Source of the DNA: a virus
Length of the DNA: 64,000 bases
IMG/VR virus record: IMGVR_UViG_3300034117_001582
Coordinates: 227,868 to 291,867 of that record
Strand: one strand, 5' to 3'
Part shown: piece after piece, positions 6,674-63,724 of the stretch
Position numbering within the stretch: position 1 is the stretch's first letter
How the letters are laid out: each line of letters begins with the position of its first letter
Notes under the pieces: generated by a model
The model's input: the letters and a program-made list of their open reading frames with translations, nothing else
Databases searched by the model: none
What the model was told of the DNA's origin: nothing
Position numbers and translations under genes: made by a program

Positions 6674-6679
6674 TATAGA

Positions 6680-6745: not shown

Positions 6746-6755
6746 ATAATATATA

Positions 6756-7282: not shown

Positions 7283-8236
7283 AACTATACATTAAGGTTA
7301 ATAAATATATTCCATAATGTGAATAACAAATGGGGATGACAGTATGTCAGGAGGGAATTGTTGATAACTATTTATGTTAATTTATTTGATTTTGTCAAAA
7401 TGTCAGTCAGCGAACACGAACGGGACAATCCCTTTTCCCACTTTATCCCACATCTTCTTACCACTATTTACCACCACAATTCCCTCTGTTGCTATAGTGA
7501 GACTAATAAATCCCCTCTATCAGTACCGCCATAAAGGTTTTTTTAGGTATACAGATTTTCCAGCTAAAAATTGTATTAATACTGTAGAGGCGGCCGAGAC
7601 GTAGTCTTATAGTTCTTCCAACGTATAGGGAACCGAAAATATCCCCTTCAACGTGTCATTAAGTCATATCACCAACGTTTAAGACCTCTATAGTTTAGTG
7701 GTAATATGTGGGACAATTAGTCATATCATATAAATCAGGTTTCACCTGACCACAGTGATATATAACATCAGTCCCTCTAATAAGTTCTATGTATATTATT
7801 CCCTTATACATAACGAAGTTATTCTATATATGAATTACTTTAAAGAACACCATATACCACATGTGAATGTCTACCACTATTATGGGGAGAGGTCGAAGAC
7901 CGATTAAATGGGGGGAACTATCAGGTAAACTTTCTATACCTGAGAACCTCATCATGTAAAAGAACTATACATTATCTTATCGTAATGTGGATTACTGTAA
8001 TGACCATTACATTACTGTTTAAGATATGTCCCATTAATTACCACATATCCTTTATACAAAGGTAACGATTACTCTTGTTTTTTATACGAAGGTAAAGATT
8101 ACTCTCGTTAAGAGTATAGGATAAATTTATGAGGTGAATTCCGTAGTGATAACGGAGGACTATGAACCGAATGAATTAATCGTATAGTCTAACTTACTTT
8201 CCCTATAATGTAGAGGATTAGTTATTTTATACATTA
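7283..8236. other. Gene-poor region with scattered short hairpins
   Basis: No believable gene in ~950 bases. Short inverted repeats include 7735-7749 (TCAGGT/ACCTGA), 7891-7901 (GGTC-gaa-GACC), 7921-7943 (TCAGGTA/TACCTGA, 9-base loop), 7997-8010 (GTAATG/CATTAC) and 8140-8156 (TCCGT/ACGGA). There is a 30-bp tandem repeat at 8051-8110. No tRNA could be folded. Possible roles are small RNAs, a regulatory or origin region, or decayed genes. Confidence 0.45.
8051..8110. repeat. Tandem repeat, 2 x 30 bp
   Basis: Two adjacent 30-base units (8051-8080 and 8081-8110) identical at 26 positions. Each contains a GATTACTC core, and the first contains, on the minus strand, TACCTTTG, which resembles a host -7 box. 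Confidence 0.8.
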
Positions 8237-29985: not shown

Positions 29986-30905
29986 TTTATTTTTAATTTT
30001 TGACCAACTTTTATACTATCTGATTTCAAATTATTTAATTTTTTTATTGTTTCAGCCGTTACCGTTTTATCGTATTTAGCCGCTATTTTAGAAAGACTAT
30101 CACCTGGTTTTACCGTATAAAAGACATCATAAGAATTAATAGGTTTAGAGTTTAATGTTTTATCTGTTTCCTTACTAATTTTTTTATTTGGGGTAAAATA
30201 TTGGTTACACTCAGGATGTTGACTCATTTTATACATATCTAATCCCGATATTAATTGTGATAAACATTTTTCTTTACCCCATACCGCACCCTTTTCTAAT
30301 GGGTTATTAACTGGTTTTTTTGTTTTTAATTCGTTACCATATCTTTTAAAAGCCTCTTGATTTGTTACCATTCTATCGGCAACACCACCTTTATATTTTG
30401 GATTCTTTGCTTGTGAAAAATCTATATCCCAACCTTGTAAGTATTTTGTTGCAGCATCTTGCCAATTACCAGCGTTAATTGCTTCAACCCACTTGTAACC
30501 TTTTTTTGCTTCACCTCGATAAACTGAATTTACAAGAGCCTTTCTTACGTATAACGGATAGTTATCATACTTTGGGAAAAGAGATTTAGTTTTATTTTCT
30601 TCTTTTTGAATATCTGACGTTAATAATTGTTCCGCCTTAGATTTTGTTATAGTATTTCCAATTTTAGCTTCAGGTCCTGTGTGTCCCCAACCGATAGTCA
30701 AAGTGCCTCCTCTTTTTTTACTTGATGCGTTTACAAATGTTTTAGGGTCTTTAGGGTCTTTGTCATCAAAAACATAGTGTTTACCTGATGAATTGGTCAC
30801 TTCATTTTCGTAAGACTTAATAATTTTTCTAAAATCTTCATCATCAGTCAATGGCGTACCCTCCATTAATAAATTAAATTGTGATTCTGTTATTATTATT
30901 CTCAT
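29982..30905 (-). CDS. Class B leader plus GH24-like lysozyme with LysM domain
   Basis: 307 residues. Leader RIIITESQFNLLMEG ends L-M-E at 13-15. A T4-lysozyme-like catalytic domain follows (E33 in SYENE, TIGWGHT at 70-76, helical lobe to ~200). The C-terminus has a LysM peptidoglycan-binding domain (YTVKPGDSLSKIAAKYD...VGQKLKIK). With a packaging-type leader it may be virion-associated, acting on peptidoglycan during entry, rather than a cytoplasmic endolysin. First gene of the class B operon. Confidence 0.83.
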   Translation of the reverse strand: MRIIITESQFNLLMEGTPLTDDEDFRKIIKSYENEVTNSSGKHYVFDDKDPKDPKTFVNASSKKRGGTLTIGWGHTGPEAKIGNTITKSKAEQLLTSDIQKEENKTKSLFPKYDNYPLYVRKALVNSVYRGEAKKGYKWVEAINAGNWQDAATKYLQGWDIDFSQAKNPKYKGGVADRMVTNQEAFKRYGNELKTKKPVNNPLEKGAVWGKEKCLSQLISGLDMYKMSQHPECNQYFTPNKKISKETDKTLNSKPINSYDVFYTVKPGDSLSKIAAKYDKTVTAETIKKLNNLKSDSIKVGQKLKIK

Positions 30906-40258: not shown

Positions 40259-41176
40259 TTATAGTTTTAAAATATCTCCAATTTTTACAAAATCATCATT
40301 AAATTCTTCCATTCGCATTCTATCTTCATAATCGTAGTCATCAATATCATTATAATTAGTGATAATTAATTCATATGAAAATGCGCTATCGTTAGCATTT
40401 AATTCTTCAAATTTTTCTAAAGTCATTTCGGTGTCTTCAAACTTTTTAATTTTTGAACCTAGCACAACAATACTCATATAATTTATATTAAAATAGTCTT
40501 CGGTAGATTCTTCTTGTCCACTACCATCACAATTTGAACATTGAACATCACCATCTCCACCACAATCACTACAGGATAAAGTTTGTGATCCGTCACATTC
40601 ATTACATTCATAATTACCCTCTCCACTACAATTTGAGCAAGCTTCTTTACCCGAACCATCACAACTTGAACATTCAACTTCTATCTCTTCACCTTCATCG
40701 TCATAATCAGTTTCTTCACCAGAACCATCACAATTTGAGCAATCTTCTTTACCCGAACCATCACATTCGTAACAATCTTCTTTACCCGAACCATCACAAC
40801 TTGGGCATTCAACTTGTCCATCTCCATCACATTCGTAACATCCCTCTTGACCTCCACCATCACAGTATGAACAATCCATGGTTTTTTTGGTTAACTCAGT
40901 AAAAATTTGAATTTGATATTCATAAAGATTACTAATAATTTTTACTAAACCGTCTGTTGGTATTTTTGGGTTTCTAATCATAAAGTAAGTAGCAAAAATA
41001 GTTTTTGTTCTTTCTCTATGTGTGTTTAGTTTAGAAAATAAAACATTAACCAAATGGTCATTGTCTGAAATACGTTTTAGATTGTTTAACGTTTTTATAC
41101 CCATACCTTCACTTTCAATATAATTTTTGAAAGTTTTAGCAATTGATAATATTTTTCTTATCTCTTCTTGATTCAT
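40259..41176 (-). CDS. Protein with ten DnaJ-type CxxC zinc-finger repeats
   Basis: 305 residues from the ATG at 41176. The N-terminal ~110 residues are helical (MNQEEIRKILSIAKTF). Residues ~110-225 hold about ten C-x-x-C-D/S/G-G-x-G units spaced 8-10 residues apart, like the DnaJ cysteine-rich domain (normally four), probably binding about five zinc ions. No J-domain is visible. The acidic C-terminus is unknown. It may be a chaperone-like or thiol-rich scaffold. Confidence 0.78.
   Translation of the reverse strand: MNQEEIRKILSIAKTFKNYIESEGMGIKTLNNLKRISDNDHLVNVLFSKLNTHRERTKTIFATYFMIRNPKIPTDGLVKIISNLYEYQIQIFTELTKKTMDCSYCDGGGQEGCYECDGDGQVECPSCDGSGKEDCYECDGSGKEDCSNCDGSGEETDYDDEGEEIEVECSSCDGSGKEACSNCSGEGNYECNECDGSQTLSCSDCGGDGDVQCSNCDGSGQEESTEDYFNINYMSIVVLGSKIKKFEDTEMTLEKFEELNANDSAFSYELIITNYNDIDDYDYEDRMRMEEFNDDFVKIGDILKL
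40510..40880 (-). repeat. DNA repeats encoding the CxxC units
   Basis: Degenerate repeats of about 24-33 bases (plus-strand cores such as ACCATCACA and ACAATTTGAACA-like) that encode the C-x-x-C-D-G-S-G units. They follow codons and appear to result from expansion within the gene. Confidence 0.7.
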
Positions 41177-41241
41177 ATAAATAAATATATTAAAAAACAA
41201 AAAACCCCACCATTAAAATAAAGAGGGGTTTATATTATTTA

Positions 41242-48168: not shown

Positions 48169-50037
48169 TTATCTTATCACTCGTCTAATGGTTCCATCCG
48201 TATAAATTTCAATAACAATTCCTGTAGCATTTGGGCCAACTTCTTGTCCTGCAGCATTAATAGTTTTGGCAATTATTTTAATGGCATCTCTATTGTTAAT
48301 AGCTATTGGTCCAAATACCTCATTAACACCATCAATATCATATTGATGTAATCTATAGTAGTTAATTACTTGGGACACATCTTTATCCTCTAAACTATAG
48401 TCTATTTTTTGAGTTGAGTTACCAACAGATTGTACTTGTCCGATACCACCCCATTTAAAACCATCTTCACTTTTTTCAATAATAAAGTGACTAGTATTGT
48501 GTTCAGACGCGGTTGACCAATATAATAGATTTGAGTTAGTTTGTTTCTTACCTTCAAACGATAACAACTCAATAGGTAACGCAGACATTCTAGTCACAGA
48601 AACATCCCTACATACATTTACTGTTCCACATAATGAGTTTGTATTAACATGTATGTATAAGGTATTATTGTTTGTAGGTGTGAAAGATAATGGCGATAAC
48701 CCTACGGCAATAACAGACCCATTAGATGTCCCACTTCTCACTGTTATCCAGTCAGTTGCGACCGTAGTCATTGCAATATATGGTGTTCCTACCACAGCAC
48801 CACTCCAAACTGAATATTCACCGGCAAATTGACACGGCACCGTAGTATATGATATTCCACCAAATACCGGTAAACTTTGTGTTCCATATGCAATGGTATT
48901 GATACAAGGTCCTGGTGTAGGAGGTGAAACGCAAGTTAAGTTTATAGAAAAACCACTATTCGTACTATACCCATGAACTAGTATATAATAATTTGTTCCT
49001 ACCACAGAAGACCATGAAAATGAAGCGGATGAACTACCACAAGCAGGACCATAATCATCATTACCCCCCACACAAGTTAGACTTCCGCACCCTACCCCTG
49101 AAAATACAGACATTTTACTATCCCATGCCGTTGCACAAAGATTTGCAGTCATGATTTGTCCATTTCCTGGAATAACATACCAAACACCAGGTTGCGTTTG
49201 ACTAACAGAACAAAATCCACCTTCACCCGTTCCAGAGTTAGTGGCATTTACTGTTGTTCCTGCTATGGTTTGGCCACAAGTAATAGGTGTTGAATTACAC
49301 ACTAAATCATTTGATGGGGCTGCAGGTGCTGAGCAAGTTAAACAAGAAATAGATGATGTTCCGCAGTTCATAGCGGTACCACAAGTATTATTTGTGTTGT
49401 AATGAACGAAATACGTTCCTGAGGATGGACATGTCCAATTTAGTGGAGCATTTCCACTAGCAATTACCGTACCATTATATGTTCCTGATCTAACCGTTAT
49501 GAATCCACCTAAATTGTAAGCTGATTGATATGTACGACCTACAATACAAGAATATATCGTACTGTATTCTGCTTGAAATTGACAAGTACTAATAATTACT
49601 GTTGTTGGTGTTGATGGTGCCGTTGCCGATCCGTATGATGTGGTATTAATACATGGACCTACAGCGGCACCTGCACAACTTGCTAATACGGTTTGCCCTC
49701 CAGCGGTTGCAGATCCAGCAACCGGTTGGATAGTATTGATTATGGTGGTTCCTGCTCCATTGATAACTCGTATACGCATTTCGGAAGGATAAAGTCCTGC
49801 AGTGGTTCGGAATACTCTAATTGTTGCCCCTACAGCAGCACTAAAGGAAGAAGAAGTAGGTCCGGCTCCAACACAACTTAAATTAGATAAAACAGTTACA
49901 CCGTTAACGGAAACAGATACCAAACCTCCATTCCAACCATCACCCCAAGTGTCGGTTCTTTGTATGGTATGTAAGCATGATTGTGAAAATAAGAGAGATG
50001 AAAATAGGACAAAAAATCCAAGTAGTATATTCTTCAT
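48169..50037 (-). CDS. Secreted T9SS-type protein with repeated beta domains
   Basis: 622 residues. Signal peptide MKNILLGFFVLFSSLLFSQS, then several beta-domains, including a duplicated segment (FITVRSGTYNGTVIASG and WITVRSGTSNGSVIAVG) and a Cys-containing pre-peptidase-type part. Near the C-terminus is the T9SS-associated module (ALPIELLSFEGKKQTNSN then WSTASEHNTSHFIIEKS), and the last ~30 residues are a short sorting-like tail (GQEVGPNATGIVIEIYTDGT). Cell-surface or released adhesin-like protein. Confidence 0.8.
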   Translation of the reverse strand: MKNILLGFFVLFSSLLFSQSCLHTIQRTDTWGDGWNGGLVSVSVNGVTVLSNLSCVGAGPTSSSFSAAVGATIRVFRTTAGLYPSEMRIRVINGAGTTIINTIQPVAGSATAGGQTVLASCAGAAVGPCINTTSYGSATAPSTPTTVIISTCQFQAEYSTIYSCIVGRTYQSAYNLGGFITVRSGTYNGTVIASGNAPLNWTCPSSGTYFVHYNTNNTCGTAMNCGTSSISCLTCSAPAAPSNDLVCNSTPITCGQTIAGTTVNATNSGTGEGGFCSVSQTQPGVWYVIPGNGQIMTANLCATAWDSKMSVFSGVGCGSLTCVGGNDDYGPACGSSSASFSWSSVVGTNYYILVHGYSTNSGFSINLTCVSPPTPGPCINTIAYGTQSLPVFGGISYTTVPCQFAGEYSVWSGAVVGTPYIAMTTVATDWITVRSGTSNGSVIAVGLSPLSFTPTNNNTLYIHVNTNSLCGTVNVCRDVSVTRMSALPIELLSFEGKKQTNSNLLYWSTASEHNTSHFIIEKSEDGFKWGGIGQVQSVGNSTQKIDYSLEDKDVSQVINYYRLHQYDIDGVNEVFGPIAINNRDAIKIIAKTINAAGQEVGPNATGIVIEIYTDGTIRRVIR

Positions 50038-51500: not shown

Positions 51501-51818
51501 TTAACTTATTATTTTAATTTCACTTTCAGTTTCTATTACTACTCTTGCCCCACAACTTAATAACGGTTTCTCATCCCCACTACCACAATATATAATTCTA
51601 CTTGGTCCAAGTATTTCGACCTCATTACAATACGTGTTCTTTCTACCTTGTTTAATTGTTATTACCGGTAAGTCCGTATTCTTTGTTTTGTTTGACCTAA
51701 TATGGTGTTGGTTAACGTGGATTTTTGTTTTCAAAATGAATTGGGTTTTCACAATTTCCTTTATGTGAACCCCAAGTATTTTCTCCAAAACCAACTTTAA
51801 TGTATTCACAACCTCCAT
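51501..51818 (-). CDS. Hypothetical protein, start uncertain
   Basis: Up to 105 residues. The first ~35 residues overlap the 51712-51996 gene, and no better ATG exists between them, so the real start may be a non-ATG codon near 51715. The likely core (VITIKQGRKNTYCNEVEILGP) is beta-rich with two Cys. Unknown function. Confidence 0.5.
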   Translation of the reverse strand: MEVVNTLKLVLEKILGVHIKEIVKTQFILKTKIHVNQHHIRSNKTKNTDLPVITIKQGRKNTYCNEVEILGPSRIIYCGSGDEKPLLSCGARVVIETESEIKIIS

Positions 51819-51996
51819 ATGTAAATTCTGTTACATTTTTGAAACGGTCATTAGATTTCTGTCTTAACTCTATAGGTTTTTCTATTTGTTCAGATATTGT
51901 TTTATCACACGATGTTAACGATATAAGAACCATACCAAGTAGGAATCCAATTATCATCACAAATAATGGTCCAATATCTATTTCTTTTTTTTTCAT
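51712..51996 (-). CDS. Small lipoprotein
   Basis: 94 residues from the ATG at 51996. A signal-like hydrophobic stretch ends LISLTSC (lipobox Cys near 30), followed by a small beta-rich domain with GGCEYIKVGFGENTWG. Probably exported and lipid-anchored. Confidence 0.65.
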   Translation of the reverse strand: MKKKEIDIGPLFVMIIGFLLGMVLISLTSCDKTISEQIEKPIELRQKSNDRFKNVTEFTYGGCEYIKVGFGENTWGSHKGNCENPIHFENKNPR

Positions 51997-52031
51997 ATAC
52001 AAAAATTAAATGATTTGTGTTCTAAAATCAA

Positions 52032-52484
52032 CTATGGTTTTGAATAAAATTTGATTTTGTTTTTGGCGTTTTCTATTAACCATTCATCAACATATGGAAT
52101 CTTTTTTAAGAAATCCAACTCATGTTGATAAGTTATTACTTCTTCAACGTTTGGTGCCAAGTTAAAGTTAGTTGTTAAAAAATATAAATGTAATGACTCG
52201 TGAACAAGGATTGCGGCTATATTGTATATATTACCGTTGTTCATCTCTTTTGTTGGAATTGTAATTATACTATCCGATTCTGTTGTTGAAAACCCTCCAT
52301 TCCAAAAAGCAACTACCTTACATGTTTCCATAATAAGGTAGTATTTTTCTATATCATATTTTTGTACAGTATCTAAAGCCTGTTCTACTTTACCTTTCCA
52401 CCCATCCCCAACATCAGTAATTCTGATTTGAGAGAAAGAGTATGAGGACAAAATTAACAATATCAAAAGTGTCCATATCTTCAC
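52032..52484 (-). CDS. Secreted HExxH metallopeptidase-like protein
   Basis: 150 residues. Signal peptide (MKIWTLLILLILSSYSFSQ), then VHESLHLYF (HESLH) with Glu residues ~15 further on (VEEVITYQHE), a compact zinc-peptidase-like layout. Unlike the leader peptidases it is exported. It lies in the secreted module and overlaps the upstream stop by 4 bases. Confidence 0.68.
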   Translation of the reverse strand: MKIWTLLILLILSSYSFSQIRITDVGDGWKGKVEQALDTVQKYDIEKYYLIMETCKVVAFWNGGFSTTESDSIITIPTKEMNNGNIYNIAAILVHESLHLYFLTTNFNLAPNVEEVITYQHELDFLKKIPYVDEWLIENAKNKIKFYSKP

Positions 52485-52936
52485 GGCAATTTAGTTGCAG
52501 CCTCGTGTATTGCTTTTTTTAACGCTGACGATACCGTCATCTTTTCAAATGGAATTGACCCTTCTTGAACCTCAATCATTATCGCTCTAATCTCAGTGTC
52601 TGATTCACCAATACCTTGGTAACAATTACCTTTATAGTGAAGTTTAACTCCGACCTGAGTTATTGTGTTTGTTTTTTCTACACCAACAACTCTTATGGTT
52701 GTTTTAGGTAATCCAAAATAATACACCTCAACATCAATATCATCACCATTGTCAGATAAACAATACTTTTCAGATAACTCTTCTTCAACAATTTGTTTAA
52801 TACCAAAACGAATATCTCTATTACCCAGTTCTCTTAATTTTGCCGTATTATATATTGAATCAACATGAACACATTGTTGAGCCGTTGCGAGGTTACCAAG
52901 TAGTAACATACCAAAGAGTAAGATTAAATTCTTCAT
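52481..52936 (-). CDS. Secreted hypothetical protein
   Basis: 151 residues from the ATG at 52936, where a clean signal peptide begins (MKNLILLFGMLLLGNLATAQ). The C-terminal MTVSSALKKAIHEAATKLP segment recalls accessory regions of CsgG-type proteins, which is only suggestive. Periplasmic or outer-membrane factor of the curli-like module. Confidence 0.68.
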   Translation of the reverse strand: MKNLILLFGMLLLGNLATAQQCVHVDSIYNTAKLRELGNRDIRFGIKQIVEEELSEKYCLSDNGDDIDVEVYYFGLPKTTIRVVGVEKTNTITQVGVKLHYKGNCYQGIGESDTEIRAIMIEVQEGSIPFEKMTVSSALKKAIHEAATKLP

Positions 52937-52938
52937 AT

Positions 52939-53949
52939 TTAAAACCAATTTTTTGGATTCCATTTTGATTTTTCAGCATCTCTAGCAGCTCTATCTAACG
53001 CGTCTTGAGCCTCTCTTGCCTGTCTATTAATTTCATCTTGTGCCGCTCTTGCTTGTCTATCAAGTTCATCTTGTGCTGCTCTCGCTTGTCTATCAAGTTC
53101 TTGTTGTGCCTCTCTCGCCTTTCTATCTAATTCTTCCTGAGCAATTCTTGCCAATCTATCAGTTTCCTCTTTAGCAGCTTTCGCTTGTCTATCAAATTCT
53201 TCTTGAGCTTCTCTCGCCTTTCTTTCAGTTTCTTCTTGGGCTATTTTTGCAAGTCGTTCAGTTTCTCTTTGTGTTGCTTCAGATAATGCTTGTGCTTCTG
53301 CCGCCACACGTTCTGATTCTTCAGCCGCCAATCTAGCGTCTTCAGCAATTTGGTTTGTATCAACACTAACACTTAAATCAACATCAACACCAAGTAAAAC
53401 CGCCACTTCACCACTAACTCCAACAGTTGCAACTCCATCCACAAAGGTAGCTTCACCACCACCACCAATTCCAACTTGTTCTCCAACCGATACTCCTGCT
53501 CCAGCAGTTACTGAACCTTCTCTAAAATCGGCAGTTCCTTCACCATCAACACCTACTGATGTACCTGCAGATACACTTCCGTTTGCAACTACACCTTCAT
53601 CTCCCGCTCTTACTTCTAAACTTGCCTCATTTCCTGTTTTAGCATAAGCGTCTACAGAACCACCAACTCCAAATCCTTCAGCATTTGCTTGACCTTCTAC
53701 CGTCACATGAACTTCAGTTGTATCTGAGTAGTTTGCTTCTACATATACGTTATTACCGTCTAATCCACCTTCCACAGATGCCTCTGTTCCGGTTTTAGCA
53801 GACGCTTCAATACCAATTGAGGCATTTTCATCTCCGACTTCCACACCCGCAGATGCAGTGGTTGTATTGTCAATTGATGCTCCACCTGAGGTTTCATTTG
53901 AATGTGTTTCGGCGGTTTCGTTGTGTTTGATGTGTGCGTGTTTTTTCAT
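52939..53949 (-). CDS. Repeat protein: Gly/Ala beta region plus 11-residue coiled-coil repeats
   Basis: 336 residues. The N-terminal ~200 residues are rich in Gly, Ala, Ser and Val (VEGGLDGNNVYVEANY), like beta-helical or amyloid-like segments. The last ~130 residues are about ten 11-residue repeats of the form AQ-E-E-L-D-R-x-A-R-x (hendecads), predicted as a long coiled coil. No signal peptide; begins with a His-containing MKKHAHIKHNET. Could be a fibre, scaffold or surface polymer. Confidence 0.75.
   Translation of the reverse strand: MKKHAHIKHNETAETHSNETSGGASIDNTTTASAGVEVGDENASIGIEASAKTGTEASVEGGLDGNNVYVEANYSDTTEVHVTVEGQANAEGFGVGGSVDAYAKTGNEASLEVRAGDEGVVANGSVSAGTSVGVDGEGTADFREGSVTAGAGVSVGEQVGIGGGGEATFVDGVATVGVSGEVAVLLGVDVDLSVSVDTNQIAEDARLAAEESERVAAEAQALSEATQRETERLAKIAQEETERKAREAQEEFDRQAKAAKEETDRLARIAQEELDRKAREAQQELDRQARAAQDELDRQARAAQDEINRQAREAQDALDRAARDAEKSKWNPKNWF
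52975..53320 (-). repeat. 33-bp tandem repeats encoding 11-residue units
   Basis: About ten degenerate 33-base units in the 3' end of the 52939-53949 gene. Each encodes one hendecad (A-Q-x-E-x-D-R-x-A-x-x), with the central ones most alike. Length variation between related phages is expected. Confidence 0.75.
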
Positions 53950-53967
53950 TTTTACTTAGTTTTTAAT

Positions 53968-54252
53968 TTATTTATCTTTTAATTCATTTATTGCATCCTC
54001 AACATACTTATCTCTTTGGTCTTGGAGATACGTAATTCTTTGTAAGAGTATTTCTTTATCTTCTTTGGCCGTTTTATCTATAAGTTGGTCCTTTTCTTCG
54101 TATTGTACTTGCCAAAATGAAACTCTTTCTTCCATCATACGATGTTGATAATAAATTACACCTAACATAAGTATAATAATAAAAGATTGTTCTTTAAGTT
54201 TAGATAAGAACGTATCTGCGAATCCTGAAATTGGGTTTGTGTTTCCTGACAT
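53968..54252 (-). CDS. Membrane-anchored coiled-coil protein, spanin-like topology
   Basis: 94 residues. One transmembrane helix near 24-42 (FIIILMLGVIYYQ), then a charged coiled-coil tail. This is the topology of an i-spanin or small scaffold protein. It sits in the secreted module. A late-type motif is upstream. Confidence 0.7.
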   Translation of the reverse strand: MSGNTNPISGFADTFLSKLKEQSFIIILMLGVIYYQHRMMEERVSFWQVQYEEKDQLIDKTAKEDKEILLQRITYLQDQRDKYVEDAINELKDK

Positions 54253-54279
54253 AACGTTTAGTTTTATAAATAAATAGTC

Positions 54280-54873
54280 TTAACTTTTAATAATGTATTT
54301 AGTAAAGTCAGTGGATAAAGGTTTTTCATTTTTGAAGTAATATTTCTCCATTTTATTACCATATTTTATTGTTTTAATATACCCATCAGGAACTGTTGCC
54401 CCTGTTGGTAAAACAATTGATTTTTTAGAAAATATACATCTGATTTCAACGACAACATTTTTACCTGTTTTTGCTAATTCCCTTTCTCTAACTTCTAATA
54501 ATCTCCAAGTCGTTCTATTTAAGTTTTCTTGTTGTAATGAACAATTTAGATAAGTGAACGTTTTAAATAATAAATCTTTTGTGCAATTAAAGTCAGCCGC
54601 TGGTGCCATATGACCTTTATCATATGAATTATTAAAATAATCTTTATCATCAGAGGTAAGTATTGAATCACAAGTATAGAAATCCATCCCTGTTCTTGGT
54701 GCCGATCCATTAGGACATTGTACCGTATACCGAATAAACTTTGGTTGTTGTAATTTCTCTGAATAAACAATCTCAAACATATCTGTTTTAATATAGATAG
54801 AATCTCTTAACGTCTTCTGACTGAATACGAATAATGGTAATGTTAATAATAGTGTTAATAATAATTTTTTCAT
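54280..54873 (-). CDS. Secreted DNA/RNA non-specific endonuclease
   Basis: 197 residues. Signal peptide MKKLLLTLLLTLPLFVFSQ, then the EndA/NucA fold with DKGHMAPAADFN (metal-binding and catalytic His) and a following Asn (NCSLQQENLNRTTWRLLE). It would degrade extracellular or periplasmic nucleic acid, such as released host DNA or DNA of competing phages. Confidence 0.82.
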   Translation of the reverse strand: MKKLLLTLLLTLPLFVFSQKTLRDSIYIKTDMFEIVYSEKLQQPKFIRYTVQCPNGSAPRTGMDFYTCDSILTSDDKDYFNNSYDKGHMAPAADFNCTKDLLFKTFTYLNCSLQQENLNRTTWRLLEVRERELAKTGKNVVVEIRCIFSKKSIVLPTGATVPDGYIKTIKYGNKMEKYYFKNEKPLSTDFTKYIIKS

Positions 54874-54878
54874 ATCAG

Positions 54879-55751
54879 TTAAAGTTGGAATCTTGTACCT
54901 ATCATAAATAAAATAGGATTACTTTTTTTATACGTTGTAATTGTTTTATCTATTGTGTTGTTTAATCTAAAGTTTGTATTTAAAACAAATTTATTAGTAA
55001 TTTTCCAATTCATAGAAATTCCGTAATAAATGTCTAAGTTGAAATTTTCAAAATACCCAATATTTAAATCATCGCTTTTAAACACTTTATAAATATCTCC
55101 TGTGGTAAATATCTGTGGTGAAATATCAACGATTTTCGTCTTTATCGGGTAAGTATACATTAACATAACTCTAATTGTTAGTTGAGTTGATGGTGGGTTT
55201 ATTGGGTAAATATTCTCAACCCAATTACCACTTGAATCAACCACAAACTGACCTTCCCAAGGACCTTCCCACTCACCCCAAAATGTTTTTGATGTTATAA
55301 AATTGTAACCAAACTTTCCAAATTTTTTAGTGTTGATTACATCAATAAATGATACGGTTATATTTTTTTGGAAAACAAAATCACAAGACCCAATTGTTTG
55401 TAATGTAATTACCCTATTTTTTTTTGTTTTTGAAATCCCATATCCAATCCCATAATACTTCCATATTGGGTTTATTGATGTTATAAATGCGTGATTCCAT
55501 TTTTGAGTGTTTGATGTTATATTATAACTTAAATTAAGAGTTGTTGATAAACGATTATTAACATAACCTAAAGATATGTCAGATGAAGAAAGTATGTCTT
55601 TTGAATAATCAACGTAAGATTGGGTAGTCCCTAAATTATTCCATTTTGAGTTATAATCAAATAGTTCTTGTGGTGTTAATTTAATAGTATCTTGAGCTTG
55701 AAGTAAAAACCCCAAAAAAGACAAAATAAAAAGTAATGTTAGTTTTTTCAT
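54879..55751 (-). CDS. Outer-membrane beta-barrel-like protein
   Basis: 290 residues with signal peptide (MKKLTLLFILSFLGFLLQAQ). Alternating beta-strands with aromatic residues throughout, ending in FMIGTRFQL, which resembles the C-terminal beta-signal of outer-membrane barrels. No TonB box. Part of the CsgG-containing module. Confidence 0.7.
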   Translation of the reverse strand: MKKLTLLFILSFLGFLLQAQDTIKLTPQELFDYNSKWNNLGTTQSYVDYSKDILSSSDISLGYVNNRLSTTLNLSYNITSNTQKWNHAFITSINPIWKYYGIGYGISKTKKNRVITLQTIGSCDFVFQKNITVSFIDVINTKKFGKFGYNFITSKTFWGEWEGPWEGQFVVDSSGNWVENIYPINPPSTQLTIRVMLMYTYPIKTKIVDISPQIFTTGDIYKVFKSDDLNIGYFENFNLDIYYGISMNWKITNKFVLNTNFRLNNTIDKTITTYKKSNPILFMIGTRFQL

Positions 55752-56758
55752 TAGTAATTTACTGTTGTTTTATATCCAGGAGCAATCAAGTAATAGTTTT
55801 GTGACCCCCCACTTACGGGTGAGTTTATTGTCATAGATGGCATACCAGGAATACTTATTCTTAGGTCTGTTGTGTTTGTTGTTAGTGTTGTATATTGTGC
55901 TGGTGTGAATAATTTAGATGGTGTCATTGTAACCCAATTTGTTAATGTGTTATACCTTCTTAAGTTAATATAATTTTGGTCAGCAATGTTTATTTTACCA
56001 TCGTAGTTCACATCATATCTATGGTAATGAATACTTTTAATGGCTGTCGTTCCCAAAACTAACTTTGATACCTCAACCATATCTGTTATTTGTAATGCGG
56101 TTACAGGTGTTGTGGCATCGTATTGTAAATACCACTCAACCGCAGGACTTGTTGGTTGTGAGAAACTATAATACCCCGACGCATTTGTATATGCCGTTTG
56201 ATGTAATACCCAAGAAGTGTATGTAACAATGTATTCAAATTCCAACACATACGGCAACGACATATTAGGTAAATCATTCCATCTTCCACCACCAACAAAT
56301 TGTATGTAATCCTCATTATTAGAGTTATTCGGTTCACCACCATTCCAATATGACCAAGAATATGGTTCTCCAGTTACCCATTGCCAAACACCTTCGGTAA
56401 CCTCATCGGTTAAACCAATCCACCCACTTGGCCATAATCCAAATAAAAAATTATTTTCAGCCAATGTAGTTGAGGTAACAAGATGTCCTCCCATATTAAT
56501 ACAGGCTTGTTTGGCCGCAGTCCAAGTCATTGACCCTGTTGATCTATAGTATGAATGTCCATTAAAATTATTTTGTGATGTAAACCCATTCATTACGGGT
56601 GTAGTTCTTTTATACAACTTAACAGGTACATTAACCGCACCCGTTCCATCCGCATTATAAATGTATCCCGAATATGTAAAGTTTTGAGTAAACCCTATAA
56701 ACGGAATAACAAATAACATTAACGTTATTATTGTCCTACTAACATTCTTGCTCCACAT
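55751..56758 (-). CDS. Secreted C-type-lectin protein with dockerin-like repeat
   Basis: 335 residues from the ATG at 56758 (signal peptide MWSKNVSRTIITLMLFVIPF). A C-type lectin domain lies at about 45-185 (SYYRSTGSMTWTAAKQACINM, GWIGLTDE, GEPNNSN, WNDLP). Then a beta-domain and a dockerin-like calcium loop (VNYDGKINIADQNYINL). Likely binds glycans on cells or particles and may pair with the cohesin-like protein at 59773-61683. Confidence 0.78.
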   Translation of the reverse strand: MWSKNVSRTIITLMLFVIPFIGFTQNFTYSGYIYNADGTGAVNVPVKLYKRTTPVMNGFTSQNNFNGHSYYRSTGSMTWTAAKQACINMGGHLVTSTTLAENNFLFGLWPSGWIGLTDEVTEGVWQWVTGEPYSWSYWNGGEPNNSNNEDYIQFVGGGRWNDLPNMSLPYVLEFEYIVTYTSWVLHQTAYTNASGYYSFSQPTSPAVEWYLQYDATTPVTALQITDMVEVSKLVLGTTAIKSIHYHRYDVNYDGKINIADQNYINLRRYNTLTNWVTMTPSKLFTPAQYTTLTTNTTDLRISIPGMPSMTINSPVSGGSQNYYLIAPGYKTTVNY

Positions 56759-58317
56759 GTTACCGTATAATTTAAAGCACTTGATTTCAAATCCCAAGCA
56801 CCACCTGCGTTTATGTTAAATTTAAACTTTTTTGTTATTTTAATATTTGTACCAATACTTGGTAACATTACATAAGGAGATTTCATTACCACATCATTAT
56901 AGTAACTCACATAAGGAGCATAAACAAATAGGTTCATTAATTTAATATCAAATCGTTTACCTATTTTCATATCATAAGTTGCCCCACCAATAACGGCAGT
57001 ACCTAAAAAAGATTCTCTATATACTTGACCATAAGATACGGTTGCCATATAAAGAAGTTTAAGTGATTTAGGTTTTTTAAATGTAAACATTTGACCTACC
57101 GCTATTGTTCCATATAATGATTTATTACCAAAAAACCCTACGGTCAGTGTACCTGAACCTATTATGATTGATTTAGACCTAATGAATGCATAAAATCCTG
57201 TTATGTTAGGACCTCTAAGTGCTGAGGTGTAATCAACTAAAACCCCAGAACTTCGTTTACCATCCCATCTCATTGCAGTATAACCACCCGTTAACTTTAA
57301 CCCCGACTTAACGTCATTGTTTCTAAAGTTAAACCCAATAAAATCTCCACTACCCACTATTGTTGGTTTACCACCTTCTTTAGATGTTGGTGTTGAGTTT
57401 ATTGTTGTGGTTGCACCTCCTGTTATATTTGTTTGTCCTCCTCCTTCTTCCGTTGTTGTTTGGCTTTCTTCCGTCTGATTATTTCCTGAACCAGACCCTG
57501 TACTCCCATTCCCACCGTTATTCCCAGTAGTCCCGACGCCGCTATTGTTACTATTACCACCATTTTCCGTTGTTGTTTGATTGTTTATTTGACCACCTAT
57601 CTGACCGCCTATCTGACCACCTACAGACGATTCAGACGACTGAGTTCCTGTTTCATTTGATCCACCTTCAGTTGTAGTTCCTCCTGTTTGTGTTGAATTT
57701 TGAGTTCCAACATTTTGATTAGTGGTTCCATTTCCTCCGTTTGTAGTTCCTTCATTTGATCCAGAAGTGGTTGTACCTCCTTGAGTAGAGTTACCTGTTC
57801 CATTCGTTTGATTTTGAGTATTATTGGTTGTGGAATTATTAGTATTTGTTGTATTACTTCCACTTCCATTTTGGGAATTATTCCCTTTTTTGTTTTTATT
57901 GCCAGACCCCCCATTACTTAAAGAACTAACAGCCCCTCCCAATATGTTGGTGGACCCACCGGCTAAATCAGATATTGACGATAATGAGTTTAGAATCCCA
58001 ATAACATTTAATGCGGTTCCTTGGGTTACATTTATTGTGGTACCTAAACCCACGATTTCAGAGCAAGGACTATTCGTACCATATTGTGAAAATATGTTAT
58101 TAGTCCAATTGTCAAATGTTCCGTTTGTAAAATCGTTTTGACTAAACGACCCGATTTCTCCGTAGTATGCAACGGTGACGTTTCCGTTGATAGGCACTAC
58201 TATTGTTTTTAGATTACCCGTACAAGGGTCTGTGTAACTATAATTGTAAGTTTGTGCATTCAGGTTTAAGAACCAAAACACACAAAAAAACAATAGTATA
58301 ATAACATTTAGTTTCAA
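56728..58317 (-). CDS. Fusion: secreted domain, Gly/Asn/Thr linker and outer-membrane barrel-like C-terminus
   Basis: 529 residues with signal peptide. Residues ~20-135 form a folded domain; ~135-310 are a low-complexity Gly/Asn/Thr/Ser/Gln linker with GGQIGGQIGGQINN; ~315-529 are beta-strand-rich (SGLKLTGGYTAMRWDG) like an outer-membrane barrel, ending TCGARMLVGQ. Located next to CsgG-like. It may be the outer partner, or an amyloid-like surface component. Confidence 0.72.
   Translation of the reverse strand: MKLNVIILLFFCVFWFLNLNAQTYNYSYTDPCTGNLKTIVVPINGNVTVAYYGEIGSFSQNDFTNGTFDNWTNNIFSQYGTNSPCSEIVGLGTTINVTQGTALNVIGILNSLSSISDLAGGSTNILGGAVSSLSNGGSGNKNKKGNNSQNGSGSNTTNTNNSTTNNTQNQTNGTGNSTQGGTTTSGSNEGTTNGGNGTTNQNVGTQNSTQTGGTTTEGGSNETGTQSSESSVGGQIGGQIGGQINNQTTTENGGNSNNSGVGTTGNNGGNGSTGSGSGNNQTEESQTTTEEGGGQTNITGGATTTINSTPTSKEGGKPTIVGSGDFIGFNFRNNDVKSGLKLTGGYTAMRWDGKRSSGVLVDYTSALRGPNITGFYAFIRSKSIIIGSGTLTVGFFGNKSLYGTIAVGQMFTFKKPKSLKLLYMATVSYGQVYRESFLGTAVIGGATYDMKIGKRFDIKLMNLFVYAPYVSYYNDVVMKSPYVMLPSIGTNIKITKKFKFNINAGGAWDLKSSALNYTVTCGARMLVGQ
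57395..57905 (-). repeat. Low-complexity Gly/Asn/Thr-coding repeat
   Basis: Degenerate short repeats (about 9-12 bases, such as the 12-base units coding GGQI near 57585-57620) inside the 56728-58317 gene. They encode the linker and are likely to vary in length. Confidence 0.65.
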
Positions 58318-59054
58318 TTTTTAAATACGCCTTTAGTAATAAGTCTACTAACGACTCTTGACGATGCCGTTTCCAATGCCTTCTTGGTAGTAATACCTAT
58401 CGTTGATTGATTGAATTTAACCTCGTCTGATATATCACCTAATAATGATGATGTTTTCACCGTACTTGCTTCACCAAGACCTGATCCTACAATCACTTGA
58501 CTTGTTTCAGCATCTACAAATTTAATTTGTAACCCTAAACGAGTTGTTTGTGTTGTTGTCTGTTGACCATTAACTTTTACAACCTCATCCTCAGATACAC
58601 TGAAATCGTAGACTTCAATATAAACAAAGTACTTCGCCAATATCACATTTCCTTTTACATCGATTTTATTAACTGAGATTCCTTTATCAGAAGCCTTGTC
58701 CTGAGCAATCATTCGTTGTTTGATGTCTTCCTTTTCTTCAGTAAATACAAATCTACCCGTATACTCCAAATACTCAATTACAATGTTTGTAACCCCCAAA
58801 CCAACTCGTTTGTCTTTAAGTTCAGGATATAGCTCATACAACTCCTCATTAATACCAATCTTTAATAATTGGATGGGTACTTGTATTGTATCAGTATAAT
58901 TTGCAACATCATTAATAGATTGTTTCTTTTCAAATTCAGCCTGATATTGTTCAGTCTTTACAGAACCAATACCCCCACTGGTTTGTGGGGGTTGGGCTTG
59001 TACTGTTTTACATCCAATCAGAAATAGTGATAATATGTAAAGTATTTTTCTCAT
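58314..59054 (-). CDS. csgG: CsgG-like curli-type secretion lipoprotein
   Basis: 246 residues. The lipobox LFLIGC gives Cys 15. The rest matches CsgG: VTNIVIEYLEYTGRFVFTEE, a strand RLGLQIKFVDAETSQVIVGSGLGEAS and a C-terminal ALETASSRVVSRLI helix. CsgG forms a nonameric outer-membrane pore that exports unfolded polypeptide. A phage copy with barrel-like neighbours suggests export through the host outer membrane or a holin-like leak. Its start overlaps no gene; the next gene's ATG overlaps its stop. Confidence 0.83.
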   Translation of the reverse strand: MRKILYILSLFLIGCKTVQAQPPQTSGGIGSVKTEQYQAEFEKKQSINDVANYTDTIQVPIQLLKIGINEELYELYPELKDKRVGLGVTNIVIEYLEYTGRFVFTEEKEDIKQRMIAQDKASDKGISVNKIDVKGNVILAKYFVYIEVYDFSVSEDEVVKVNGQQTTTQTTRLGLQIKFVDAETSQVIVGSGLGEASTVKTSSLLGDISDEVKFNQSTIGITTKKALETASSRVVSRLITKGVFKN

Positions 59055-59099
59055 AATGTGTAAAGTATTTTTCTAATAATATGTAAAGTGGATTTTTTA

Positions 59100-59381
59100 T
59101 TATCCCTCTACTTCTTCGTCTTTATCTTTGTTTTTACCAGCAAAGTATTTATCAACAGACGCAATACCAAATGAACCTAAAGTTATCCATAAAAACCCAT
59201 CATAGATAAATTGATTTATTGGCATTTCTTGTCCGTGTAATCCCGTCCATATATCAACACCAAGACAAATAACCATCATGATAAATGACCCAAAACCTAC
59301 TATCGATTTTTCATTAATGTCGTTATGATCCATAAACATTCTTACTAAGAATGATTTCTTTTTTGTTTTCTTTTCTACCAT
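59100..59381 (-). CDS. Small membrane protein, holin-like
   Basis: 93 residues with two hydrophobic helices (about 28-47 and 62-78), Lys-rich N-terminus and charged C-terminus (KNKDKDEEVEG). Holin-like topology, next to the CsgG-like gene. A lysis role is inferred only from topology and neighbours. Confidence 0.65.
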   Translation of the reverse strand: MVEKKTKKKSFLVRMFMDHNDINEKSIVGFGSFIMMVICLGVDIWTGLHGQEMPINQFIYDGFLWITLGSFGIASVDKYFAGKNKDKDEEVEG

Positions 59382-59418
59382 TTTAATTTTAATTTTAATT
59401 GTTTATTTTAATTGTTTA

Positions 59419-59751
59419 TTACCAAGATTCTTCCTCTTTTTTAGGTTGAGGTTGAACCGGTTGGGGATTAGATGCGGGTTTCTCAATAACTCTTTCATGA
59501 ATTACTGTATTACCCCCATTGTTTTCAGTTTTTTGTTTATTTTCTTGGTTTTGTTCCACATTAATAGTGATTGGTGCTTGACCTCCACTTTGTTCTGTTT
59601 TAGTTTCTTCTTTTGGTTCTTCATGACTACCAAATAATGTAACACCTAACCATGTACCCCCACCAGCAATTACTGTTGTTAATGTACCAATAATTGTTTT
59701 TTTCAAACCTGACCATGTTCCGTCATTGGTCTCTTGTGCTTCTTCTGACAT
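59419..59751 (-). CDS. Single-helix membrane protein with Pro/Gln-rich tail
   Basis: 110 residues. A hydrophobic helix at about 15-38 (TIIGTLTTVIAGGGTWLGV), then a long Gln/Asn/Pro-rich tail with KPASNPQPVQPQPKK. This is an N-terminal anchor with a flexible periplasmic spacer, a possible partner of the adjacent holin-like protein. Confidence 0.65.
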   Translation of the reverse strand: MSEEAQETNDGTWSGLKKTIIGTLTTVIAGGGTWLGVTLFGSHEEPKEETKTEQSGGQAPITINVEQNQENKQKTENNGGNTVIHERVIEKPASNPQPVQPQPKKEEESW

Positions 59752-59772
59752 TTTTTGTTTTTATTTATTTGT

Positions 59773-61683
59773 TTATTGTTTTACTATTCTTTCAAATGAT
59801 GGAACACCATTTTCTACAGTAAGTTTAACTATATATACACCAGGAGCTAATTGTCCTAAATCTTTAGTGTAGTTATAAACTCCGTTAGGAATTTGTGTAT
59901 CCAAAATTGTAACTAACTTTCTACCCACAATATCATAAATTGATAACGTAGCGTTTGTAGTTTCTTCAACTTTAAAAGTGATGTTAACCTCATCTTGATA
60001 TGGGTTAGGATAAACTTCCATGTTGTTACCATTTAGAATTTTTCCACCTTCCATCTTTAATACTTGAAGGATTCCATTTGTAGGAGTTAAAGTTAAATCT
60101 TTAGATAATGTATTTCCTGCAAATTTTCTTGTAGTATATAATGGACTTGCTTCCCATAAGTTTTGTGGTTGTAACGCCAAGAATTGTAATGTAACTACTT
60201 GGTCACCATCTTTTAATGTGTTCGTATTATTTGTTGGGTCAAATCCACCCCAATCAATTTCATTATCATTTGGGTTAACATATGTAATCCATTTCATAGC
60301 ACCTGCCGAAGAAATTATCCCTTTAAATTCTAATAATGTGTCATCATATATAAAACCAAATTGTAATGAACTTAACTCTACCCCGTTAGTATTAACTTTA
60401 ACGGGAAGTTCAACCAAGTTTCCAGCTTGTACTGAAATGTGTGGTACGTTTACCTCAATAGATTGTGTAGGGAAATCGTATTCAACTTTAGTGTCGATAA
60501 CATTATAGATTTGATTCTCTAAACCAGGTGCCGGTCCAACAACCACTTCAATAGGTGTAACACGAGCCATATGATAACCTGTACCATTTGCGTCACCCGG
60601 TACCATTACATAATAAACAACTGAATCAGGTTGACCCGGTAATATATTAAATGTAAAGTTGGTGACTCCACCAATTGTTGATGTGTAGTTAGTTGCCGAT
60701 CCGTTAATTGTTGTGTATTCTGATGATGTAAAGAATTTAACATCTTTAGTGTTGTTAGGCCACTGAGTAAATCTACCTGACACTCTACCAAACACACCCC
60801 ATACGTCAGATATTGTTGTACCATATGATCCATTAACATCTGCAGTATAGTAGTTAAATCCTGTCATAGTACCGTTGCCCAATACCCACTGATTGATTAA
60901 TTGAGCATCTGTTGATGAGATAACATTACCCACACCCATACTATCACCTTGAACCGCTAAACGAACATCCCAAAAAGTAGTATCCAATGGAACTGAAATT
61001 GCAAAATCTCCGTCGTTATCTGTTATATATGTAGAGTGTTGTGTCCAAGTATTACTACCTAATGGTTTCTTTTCTAAAGCTAAAGTTAAAGTTTTTGCTC
61101 CCGTACCGGTTACGTTTGTAAATGTTCCGTGATACGCAAAGTTTACAGGTGTAAACACACCACCATAGTTATGAACACTTAAAGTAGTATCCATACCATC
61201 TTGTTTTGCGGCATATGGTGTGAAAGTTTGAGCTCCTGTCCATGTTAAGTTACTTATGGATGCTAAGTTGTTGAAAGTAGCCGCAGGTGCATGAGTAAAT
61301 GTAATTAAGAATTTTTCACCATTTGGTACTGTGTACGCCGCACTTGGTCCTGTGTAACTTAAAGTAACGGTAATATAACCATTCACAGTATTTGTTATAT
61401 ACTGAAGGTCTAAGTTGGTTGATGATCCGATTAATGTTACGGCAGCATTTGTAAATGCAATATTATCGTAAAACACTCGGAATTGAACCCCCGCAAATTT
61501 TGTAAGGGTTGTATTTTGTAATGTGATTTTTGCTTGGGTCGTTCCCTGAGCAGTAGTTCCTACTTGATATTGTGATGCGATGATACCCCACAAACCATTA
61601 GATGGTGCTGCGGGTACCTGTGCAAAAACGAATAAAGGAGATAAAAGAACTAAGGTTAATAGTAATTTAAATAGAATAGACAT
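59773..61683 (-). CDS. Secreted protein with cohesin-like domains, dockerin-like loop and T9SS C-terminal domain
   Basis: 636 residues. Signal peptide; a first cohesin-like beta-sandwich (about 30-175), a beta-domain, a dockerin-like segment (SSTDAQLINQWVLGNGTMTG, near 262-285), a second cohesin-like domain (about 410-540: LPVKVNTNGVELSSLQFGFI), and a canonical T9SS type A sorting domain at ~555-636 (VYPNPYQDEVNITFKVEE, YDIVGRKLV, PGVYIVKL, ERIVKQ). Exported through the host T9SS and anchored on the cell surface. Strong evidence for a Bacteroidetes host. Confidence 0.88.
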   Translation of the reverse strand: MSILFKLLLTLVLLSPLFVFAQVPAAPSNGLWGIIASQYQVGTTAQGTTQAKITLQNTTLTKFAGVQFRVFYDNIAFTNAAVTLIGSSTNLDLQYITNTVNGYITVTLSYTGPSAAYTVPNGEKFLITFTHAPAATFNNLASISNLTWTGAQTFTPYAAKQDGMDTTLSVHNYGGVFTPVNFAYHGTFTNVTGTGAKTLTLALEKKPLGSNTWTQHSTYITDNDGDFAISVPLDTTFWDVRLAVQGDSMGVGNVISSTDAQLINQWVLGNGTMTGFNYYTADVNGSYGTTISDVWGVFGRVSGRFTQWPNNTKDVKFFTSSEYTTINGSATNYTSTIGGVTNFTFNILPGQPDSVVYYVMVPGDANGTGYHMARVTPIEVVVGPAPGLENQIYNVIDTKVEYDFPTQSIEVNVPHISVQAGNLVELPVKVNTNGVELSSLQFGFIYDDTLLEFKGIISSAGAMKWITYVNPNDNEIDWGGFDPTNNTNTLKDGDQVVTLQFLALQPQNLWEASPLYTTRKFAGNTLSKDLTLTPTNGILQVLKMEGGKILNGNNMEVYPNPYQDEVNITFKVEETTNATLSIYDIVGRKLVTILDTQIPNGVYNYTKDLGQLAPGVYIVKLTVENGVPSFERIVKQ

Positions 61684-61758
61684 TTTTTTATTTTTTAGGT
61701 TTAATTGATATAAATAAATATATCTTAAAACCCAAACTGAATAAAAAAATTCAATTTT

Positions 61759-62572: not shown

Positions 62573-63724
62573 TTAATTTGATAATGGTGCCTTTATTGGT
62601 GGATGTGATTGATAATCTTTTAATGTAAAATCACCAACAACATACGATTCAATACTTGGTCTTGTTCCTGTGTAAGTTGGGAACTGATTTAGTGTTGGTA
62701 ATTCAAATGGTTCTCTTGTATGTGTTGGTGTAGTTTTTTTATATAATTCTTCTGTTATTAAAACATTATCCATTTCAAGACCAGTATTTTTTATTACCCA
62801 TTGAATTTTTTCTTCCCATGTCATTTGTCTACCAATCTGTTCTTTTGCTTGTTCAATGTGATTTAAATATAAATGTGTATCACCCAAATTACCAATCAAT
62901 TCATCAGGAACCATATTAACTTCTTTTGATAAGATTTCAAGTAGTAGTCCATAAGAAGCAATATTGAATGGGATTCCCAAAAATAAATCCGCAGATCTTT
63001 GGTTCCACATTAAAGAGATTGATCTGGTTGGAATGTTTGCTTCATCTAAATCTTTATTGGTAATCTTTTCTAAAAATCTTTCAACTTTCTTACCTTGCAT
63101 AAACAAATTTACTCTTTCACTTATACTCAACTCTCTTGTATAAACTTGAAATCCATAATGACAAGGTGGAAGAACCATTTGATCCAATTCACCCACATTC
63201 CAAGCATTAACCATTAATCGTCTTGAGTCTGGGTTTGTTTTGAGGTCGTTGATTAGGTTTTGGATTTGGTCTATTTGATAAGTATCAATAGTTTTTTCAC
63301 CTTTGTATTGTTGAAATTTAGTCCAATTACGCCATTGCTTACCGTAGATTTGCCCCATATCAAACATTGAATCGTGAAAAGAATGATTACCATCTTTTAC
63401 TTTCTGTTTAACCTCTTCTATTGTATATGGTTCTGAACAAGTAGTTTTGTAATTTTTTTCCCAATCACCGTCCCATATTTTACAATTATTTTCCCATAAA
63501 AACCTAATATCTGAATCACCACGAAGGAACCACAATAATTCTGTTGTAATTGTTTTGAATGACATTTTCTTTGTTGTAAGTAATGGGAATCCCTCACTCA
63601 TTTTATGACGGATCTGTCTACCAAACACTGAAAGAGTCCCAGTACCAGTACGATCCGATTTTGTAACTCCATTTTCAAGAATGTCCTGTAATAAATCTGT
63701 GTATTGTTTATCTAAGTTATTCAT
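62573..63724 (-). CDS. thyA: Thymidylate synthase (ThyA), enlarged
   Basis: 383 residues, longer than the usual 264-315. Signatures: LTTKKMSFKTITTELLWFL, catalytic Cys in LPPCHYGFQVY, QRSADLFLGIPFNIASYG, GDTHLYLNH. Insertions include GDWEKNYKTTCSEPYTIEEV and ISERVNLFMQGKKVERFLE; the C-terminal part also has an extra segment. It converts dUMP to dTMP using methylene-THF, supplying thymidine for phage DNA. Confidence 0.93.
   Translation of the reverse strand: MNNLDKQYTDLLQDILENGVTKSDRTGTGTLSVFGRQIRHKMSEGFPLLTTKKMSFKTITTELLWFLRGDSDIRFLWENNCKIWDGDWEKNYKTTCSEPYTIEEVKQKVKDGNHSFHDSMFDMGQIYGKQWRNWTKFQQYKGEKTIDTYQIDQIQNLINDLKTNPDSRRLMVNAWNVGELDQMVLPPCHYGFQVYTRELSISERVNLFMQGKKVERFLEKITNKDLDEANIPTRSISLMWNQRSADLFLGIPFNIASYGLLLEILSKEVNMVPDELIGNLGDTHLYLNHIEQAKEQIGRQMTWEEKIQWVIKNTGLEMDNVLITEELYKKTTPTHTREPFELPTLNQFPTYTGTRPSIESYVVGDFTLKDYQSHPPIKAPLSN

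Follow-up and report, generated by a model that had tools for sequence, protein, structure and literature searches.

The window analysed here, 64,000 nucleotides of viral DNA (bases 227868-291867 of IMG/VR record IMGVR_UViG_3300034117_001582, which has 291,867 bases in total), contains a cluster of envelope protein genes whose six-gene core keeps a near-constant order across the 185 loci that were compared. Judging from the sequences, we see about an even chance that this module is a phage-encoded device by which infected Bacteroidota cells display an exchangeable adhesin on their surface. Signal peptides for Sec export, a sorting domain of the type IX secretion system (T9SS) and a cohesin-dockerin pair whose head can be exchanged are, in combination, best explained by display on the infected-cell surface.

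The cluster lies on the minus strand, reading from 61683 down to about 51700, and each of its genes is a long open reading frame (ORF). An earlier note on this DNA had listed most of these genes as a curli-like and outer-membrane module that might build an outer-membrane channel or a surface fibre, or assist lysis. The listed genes are present, and they mark a real co-conserved envelope module, as the order of the core in the 185 loci attests; the cohesin, dockerin and T9SS domains speak for a surface structure, and the neighbouring holin-like and endolysin genes for a link to lysis. The cohesin and T9SS sorting domain of 59773-61683, the dockerin, and the proteins p160 and p150 had not been named. 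The six core genes, with two domains of the first and the number of loci in which each gene was found, are as follows.

59773-61683, minus strand: cohT9, a secreted scaffold-like protein of 636 residues (PF18962 1.6e-12, TIGR04183 1.3e-13, Cohesin 1e-6); 169-171 of 185 loci
59776-60015, minus strand: T9SS C-terminal sorting domain, cohT9 residues 557-636 (PF18962, TIGR04183)
60169-60459, minus strand: cohesin domain 2, cohT9 residues 409-505 (Pfam Cohesin)
59419-59751, minus strand: TM110, a putative inner-membrane anchor with a low-complexity tail; 155-161 of 185 loci
58314-59054, minus strand: CsgG-fold outer-membrane lipoprotein of 246 residues (top 24 PDB matches in Foldseek all CsgG, best E 1.3e-7); 185 of 185 loci
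56728-58317, minus strand: OMP529, N-terminal domain, linker and 12-stranded barrel (AlphaFold2 model, Foldseek); 178 of 185 loci
55751-56797, minus strand: dockerin-bearing C-type lectin, the dockerin-adhesin (Lectin_C 1.2e-12, Dockerin_1 0.0027); 140-141 of 185 loci
52481-52963, minus strand: p160, an exported short CsgG-family paralogue (hhalign to phage CsgG); 157 of 185 loci

The loci comprise IMG/VR contigs, two contigs from metagenome-assembled genomes (MAGs) and Flavobacterium phage immuto, with a mean length of 17 kb. Many are incomplete contigs, so gene counts across them are lower bounds. Since the core gene order is kept in 185 loci, the clustering is not a matter of chance. Across the families, Sec signal peptides are seen on nearly all core proteins, TM110 being the exception. 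Pfam, NCBIfam and PHROGs offer no family name for the CsgG-like protein, OMP529, p160 or TM110.

IMG/VR has at least 514 stretches that encode a relative of the CsgG-like protein. Among cultured phages, only the isolates of immuto, which infects Flavobacterium sp. LMO8, were found to carry the module, and a scan of 84,980 species genomes returned just two carriers, both of them Bacteroidetes MAG contigs; the larger is a 254 kb contig with phage-like neighbours. A plasmid search for the module gave no match, and no cellular donor was found in these genomes or in plasmids. Because bacterial-genome carriers are limited to the two MAG contigs, the module family looks phage-specific, and a bacterial origin was not borne out. 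The host group is Bacteroidota, with Flavobacterium as the host of immuto and both MAG matches in Bacteroidetes. In immuto (Immutovirus immuto, NC_055915), gp12-gp19 likewise comprise the nuclease, lectin, cohesin protein, TM110, CsgG-fold protein, barrel and p160, but cohT9 is split over two genes and hol93, a holin-like gene described below, is absent; its annotation calls the core gene products hypothetical, cohesin or lectin proteins. No published description of the module turned up in the literature searched, which did not cover subscription journals. By gene names assigned by eye, the record of the window has the layout of a contractile-tail phage, with a tail-sheath-like ORF at genome position 108780 and a structural block chiefly on the minus strand.

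Cohesin scaffold and exchangeable adhesin

The domains of cohT9 are, in order, a first cohesin-like domain, a prealbumin-dockerin-tail segment, a second cohesin and a T9SS type A sorting domain. The first cohesin-like domain and the internal dockerin-like stretch are visible in the alignment. Database models recognise a cohesin at 29.4 bits (above the cut-off of 24.1) and the sorting domain at 48 bits with PF18962 (cut-off 27) and 50.7 bits with TIGR04183 (cut-off 23). An N-terminal signal peptide together with a Por_Secre_tail domain above cut-off marks cohT9 as a predicted T9SS type A cargo. The family's own profile finds the sorting domain in 149 of 169 cohT9 loci, and immuto also has it; among 24 family sequences scanned with database models, the sorting domain passes the Pfam model in 18, a cohesin is recognised in 16 and a dockerin in 7.

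The window also encodes p622 (48169-50037), an exported protein of 622 residues with a Bacteroidota-style end (GQEV ... GIVIEIYTDGTIRRVIR) that resembles a degenerate T9SS sorting domain. As a second T9SS cargo it was rejected, there being no match to the sorting domain by Pfam, NCBIfam or the family's own profile.

The lectin gene probably starts at the ATG at 56758, and its product consists of a C-type lectin domain followed by prealbumin-like, dockerin-like and tail segments. cohT9 and the lectin share the portion from the prealbumin-like segment to the tail, as their family profiles cross-match (E 6.7e-11 and 9.1e-22). A dockerin search within the phage's own genome matches the lectin at 9.1e-5, and the calcium-loop residues of the dockerin are conserved in the lectin alignment.

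The head, on the other hand, is exchanged. Among the adhesins that fill the dockerin slot, 43 non-redundant sequences match Lectin_C (26), LamG (8), GEVED (4), Ig_7 (4), PA14 (1) and a pentaxin-like domain (1), with some overlaps. In loci L022 and L023 the CsgG-fold protein is 92-93% identical to that of the window and the adhesin only 24-38%; L004, L009 and L012 are 94-97% identical in the CsgG-fold protein, 83-85% in the dockerin tail and 52-54% in the head. The adhesin gene or its head is swapped between phages whose CsgG-fold proteins are more than 90% identical. Since the window's genome contains no reverse transcriptase, a diversity-generating retroelement for the C-type lectin is ruled out, and the change of head is replacement instead of retroelement hypermutation.

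Head swapping in close relatives also fits receptor-specific competition. In that variant of display the benefit would be superinfection exclusion only, the displayed head masking or occupying the glycan that serves as phage receptor; we think it quite unlikely, as there is no known receptor and it would account neither for the size of the apparatus nor for the linkage with lysis genes. C-type lectin and immunoglobulin (Ig) domains are, moreover, common in phage fibres, which counts for the module proteins being decoration or fibre proteins of the virion instead of cell-surface proteins. Such a role is highly improbable for a set in which nearly all core proteins have Sec signal peptides, one is a beta-barrel outer-membrane protein and another has a T9SS sorting domain, and whose genes lie outside the structural block.

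Predicted outer-membrane proteins and linkage to lysis genes

The CsgG-like lipoprotein of the earlier note holds up in the N-terminus of the window's protein (...LIGC-K, a lipobox) and in structure prediction, although not in a Pfam CsgG match. A lipobox was detected in 64 of 183 relatives, and lipidation is therefore not a family feature. In Foldseek, the 24 CsgG matches of the AlphaFold2 model are followed by FlgT, PelC and LptE, members of the same broad superfamily, and the modelled fold is very probably CsgG-like. Pfam CsgG (PF03783) has no match in the genome at E<=10, hhalign of the phage profile against 11 Flavobacteriaceae CsgG sequences gave a probability of 3 with controls equally low, and the CsgG and p160 profiles found no relative among the sequences of solved structures. 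A short local hhalign match between phage and Flavobacteriaceae CsgG does fall on the corresponding strand motif (TRLGLQ-FVDAETG). With the sequence and profile comparisons negative, homology to CsgG is a matter of the fold. The protein may be a ring or a pore; a pore would need two transmembrane hairpins. The kinship of p160 with the phage CsgG-like protein can be seen by hhalign (probabilities 96.7 and 98.3) and hmmsearch (1.6e-6).

OMP529 was modelled with AlphaFold2 from 45 sequences. The prediction consists of an N-terminal domain (residues 23-118) with a predicted local distance difference test score (pLDDT) of about 80, a disordered linker of about 190 residues (121-314) and a 12-stranded barrel (319-528) with pLDDT of about 90. 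Matches of the barrel in the PDB include 12-stranded autotransporter barrels, FapF and small porins, and the likeness of the modelled barrel is, on its own, generic. FapF, the secretion pore of a Pseudomonas functional amyloid, has the same layout of N-terminal periplasmic domain, disordered linker and 12-stranded barrel (PMC5557850), but OMP529 lacks sequence similarity to it, has the roughly 190-residue linker, and scores alike with autotransporters and small porins. FapB, FapC, FapD and FapE had no match among the module proteins in Pfam or NCBIfam.

These results bear on the curli-like character proposed in the earlier note. In the strict sense, in which a type VIII (curli-type) system would secrete amyloid to build a surface fibre, it is very unlikely and the claim is given up: Pfam and NCBIfam recognised no CsgA, CsgB, CsgE or CsgF in the module, both the Pfam CsgG search and the comparison with Flavobacteriaceae CsgG were negative, and there is no repeat-type amyloid subunit, the module's only N/Q/G/S-rich stretch being the OMP529 linker, whose composition is not conserved. 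In favour of such a system are the CsgG fold and a barrel that resembles FapF among many others, together with two published cases: pelagimyophages encode CsgGF (PMC7029224), and a T4-like virus of marine Bacteroidetes carries a curli annotation (PMC7198788).

TM110 has positive residues before its transmembrane helix, a low-complexity tail, and a C-terminal Trp that is the last residue in every listed member (ESW, PKW, APW, SPW). Its features would suit an inner-membrane tether docking into an outer-membrane partner. The operon also contains holin-like genes, represented in the window by the following.

59100-59381, minus strand: hol93, a holin-like protein with two transmembrane segments (holB family; two hydrophobic segments); 96 loci

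The two hydrophobic segments agree with the earlier description of this protein as holin-like; no database family supports the name, which comes from topology only. There are two families of such genes in the operon, and one or the other is present in 164 of 185 loci. Of the 185 loci, 106 encode an endolysin with PG_binding_1 and glycoside hydrolase family 19 (GH19) domains (PHROG endolysin, 1e-64), which lies no more than three genes from the core in 95 of them; by our estimate, chance would place an endolysin in about a tenth of the loci, given phages of 150-350 kb and the mean locus length. The window's genome has a GH19 endolysin of this family, with a peptidoglycan-binding domain, at 6651-7487 (L188); on a circular record it would precede the module by about 9 kb.

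Because of this linkage to holin-like and endolysin genes, a role in lysis is the main and a serious rival. The module would then be the outer-membrane arm of the lysis machinery: after holin and endolysin, TM110 would bridge to a CsgG-fold ring and OMP529 and open or fuse the outer membrane instead of a spanin, with the adhesin and cohesin parts sensing or localising the event. The topology of TM110 and its invariant C-terminal Trp fit this scheme, and a similar proposal has been published for CsgGF in phage Melnitz (PMC9004378). Yet a T9SS-sorted cohesin protein and an exchangeable glycan-binding head are not needed for lysis and are nearly as conserved as the CsgG-fold protein; the lipobox is also confined to a minority of that family, and the holin label to topology. 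TM110 and its partner lack the features of a spanin pair, the tail being low-complexity and not coiled coil and the partner a 246-residue CsgG-fold protein. We regard the lysis role as possible, if doubtful.

If the module instead displays an adhesin, as we prefer, all core proteins except TM110 would leave the cytoplasm by way of their Sec signal peptides. Its sorting domain suggests that cohT9 would cross the outer membrane through the host T9SS and then be fixed at the surface, where its cohesins may bind the dockerin of the lectin and thus present an exchangeable glycan-binding head. The CsgG-fold protein, p160, the stalked barrel of OMP529 and the TM110 tether could assemble at the outer membrane and there export, anchor or gate the adhesin. 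From gene order, the module would be made with the holin-like proteins and the GH19 endolysin, probably late. The benefit, up to lysis, might be that infected cells stay attached to host cells or polymer, or that receptors are masked.

Several observations weigh against surface display. The lectin dockerin is weak by hidden Markov model (0.0027 in the window; 18-21 bits against a curated cut-off of 22.9), and the lectin itself lacks a signal for sorting to the outer membrane. With an alignment of 19 sequences, AlphaFold2 modelled the CsgG-like protein poorly (pLDDT 49). The proximity of lysis genes might point to a lytic function instead, and the sorting domain is missing from the cohesin protein of a minor clade (L062, L063, L065 and others). 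In this clade an end resembling the sorting domain is found on a separate small lipoprotein encoded by the next gene (L062:8959-9327, L063:8989-9381, L065:9309-9683).

A wider joint claim, which we consider rather unlikely, is that of a new type of trans-envelope apparatus. Here a T9SS-exported scaffold with a cohesin-dockerin joint would show rapidly exchanged phage-encoded adhesins on infected Bacteroidota cells; the CsgG-fold ring and the stalked barrel would connect it with an inner-membrane tether next to the holin, and surface contact with host cells, glycan or sibling phages would time lysis.

Accessory genes and other proteins of the window

The remaining features of the cluster and its surroundings are listed below.

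62573-63724: thyA, just upstream of the module
61707-61723, minus strand: promoter-like motif ATATATTTATTTATAT before cohT9; the motif is general in the genome
54879-55751, minus strand: OMP290, a second barrel-like exported protein of 290 residues, local accessory (beta-rich by eye only); 3 of 185 loci
54280-54873, minus strand: NUC1-type exported DNA/RNA nuclease, accessory (PF01223 Endonuclease_NS 9.8e-19, signal peptide); 42 of 185 loci
53968-54252, minus strand: sh94, one transmembrane helix and a charged helix, i-spanin-like topology, local accessory (from sequence); 9 of 185 loci
52939-53949, minus strand: hendecad-repeat protein, local accessory (identity at lag 11); 6 of 185 loci
52032-52484, minus strand: p150, exported and metallopeptidase-like (HESxH ... 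EE ... E); 68 of 185 loci
51712-52002, minus strand: p96, small and lipoprotein-like, local accessory (SLTSC lipobox by eye); 14 of 185 loci

The exported nuclease, the lectin, the hendecad protein and the two single-helix proteins (TM110 and sh94) of the earlier note are all borne out by domain matches or sequence features. Of its two barrel-like proteins, OMP529 stands with its 12 predicted strands, and OMP290 is exported and beta-rich by eye only. The idea of one cluster applies to the core and fails for the hendecad protein, OMP290 and p96, which lie outside the conserved module. Residue identity in the hendecad protein is 0.58 at lag 11 as against 0.06-0.25 at other lags; a glycine-rich beta-repeat region precedes the helix of 11-residue repeats, and a signal peptide is absent. 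In p150, residues H95, E96, H99, E114, E115 and E122 are invariant in 11 members.

The motif TATTTAT, which precedes cohT9, sh94, the nuclease gene and the p622 gene, is probably a phage promoter element, since it is strand-specific and concentrated 11-40 bases before start codons. It had been put forward as a late-type motif, but it does not discriminate: it is found upstream of 19 of 40 structural-region genes and 63 of 143 others, and is therefore a general promoter mark of the phage.

Dozens of small proteins (window 85-46471 and elsewhere in the record) share kinds of leader of about 20 residues, namely MKKVIRLTESDLxRIVKRVINE, MKIIITESQY, MNLQENIRRIQ and MRELIKHILKE; a loose pattern finds them in 36 of 322 genes. 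The leaders resemble the capsid-targeting propeptides of T4 internal proteins, and the proteins may be packaged in the head. A lysozyme-like protein with a LysM domain (by eye; 29982-30905) bears the leader MRIIITESQ and is possibly a packaged, virion-borne lysin. The protein at 40259-41200 contains many cysteine repeats of the CDGSGKE type, like an expanded DnaJ zinc region.

Related systems and significance

The closest published counterparts are the CsgGF modules of pelagimyophages (PMC7029224) and of the methylophage Melnitz (PMC9004378), in which a phage encodes a CsgG-fold outer-membrane protein for which roles in lysis and cell capture have been proposed. In Melnitz, a thymidylate synthase gene (thyX) lies just upstream of csgGF, as thyA (62573-63724) adjoins the module here. 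CsgF accompanies CsgG in those modules; here the partners are the cohesin/T9SS protein, the dockerin-adhesin, the stalked barrel, a second CsgG paralogue and the Trp-ended tether, and Pfam misses the CsgG-fold protein. The set is indeed richer than the CsgGF modules of pelagimyophages, as had been suggested.

Phage proteins with a T9SS type A sorting domain, variable cargo and a presumed host T9SS are also known from Cryophage (Bellas 2020, PMC7468147). The Cryophage cargo genes, for separate enzymes and a PA14 protein, lie in variable islands, whereas the conserved operon here has a single scaffold-like cohesin protein. Cellulosome scaffolds similarly have cohesin domains in one protein and the dockerin in another; the phage-encoded version differs in its adhesin heads, its lack of a catalytic module and the dockerin within the scaffold.

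The function of CsgG-like genes in marine phages has so far not been agreed on, and here a CsgG-fold gene stands in a conserved operon with interpretable partners. These partners, and the cultured pair of immuto and Flavobacterium LMO8, make roles in adhesion, superinfection and lysis directly testable. If surface display is true, phage use of host type IX secretion would be conserved over a wide group and not confined to one phage, and cohesin-dockerin joints would be used by a virus. That heads are swapped between phages otherwise almost identical suggests that selection acts strongly on the binding partners of the infected cell surface.

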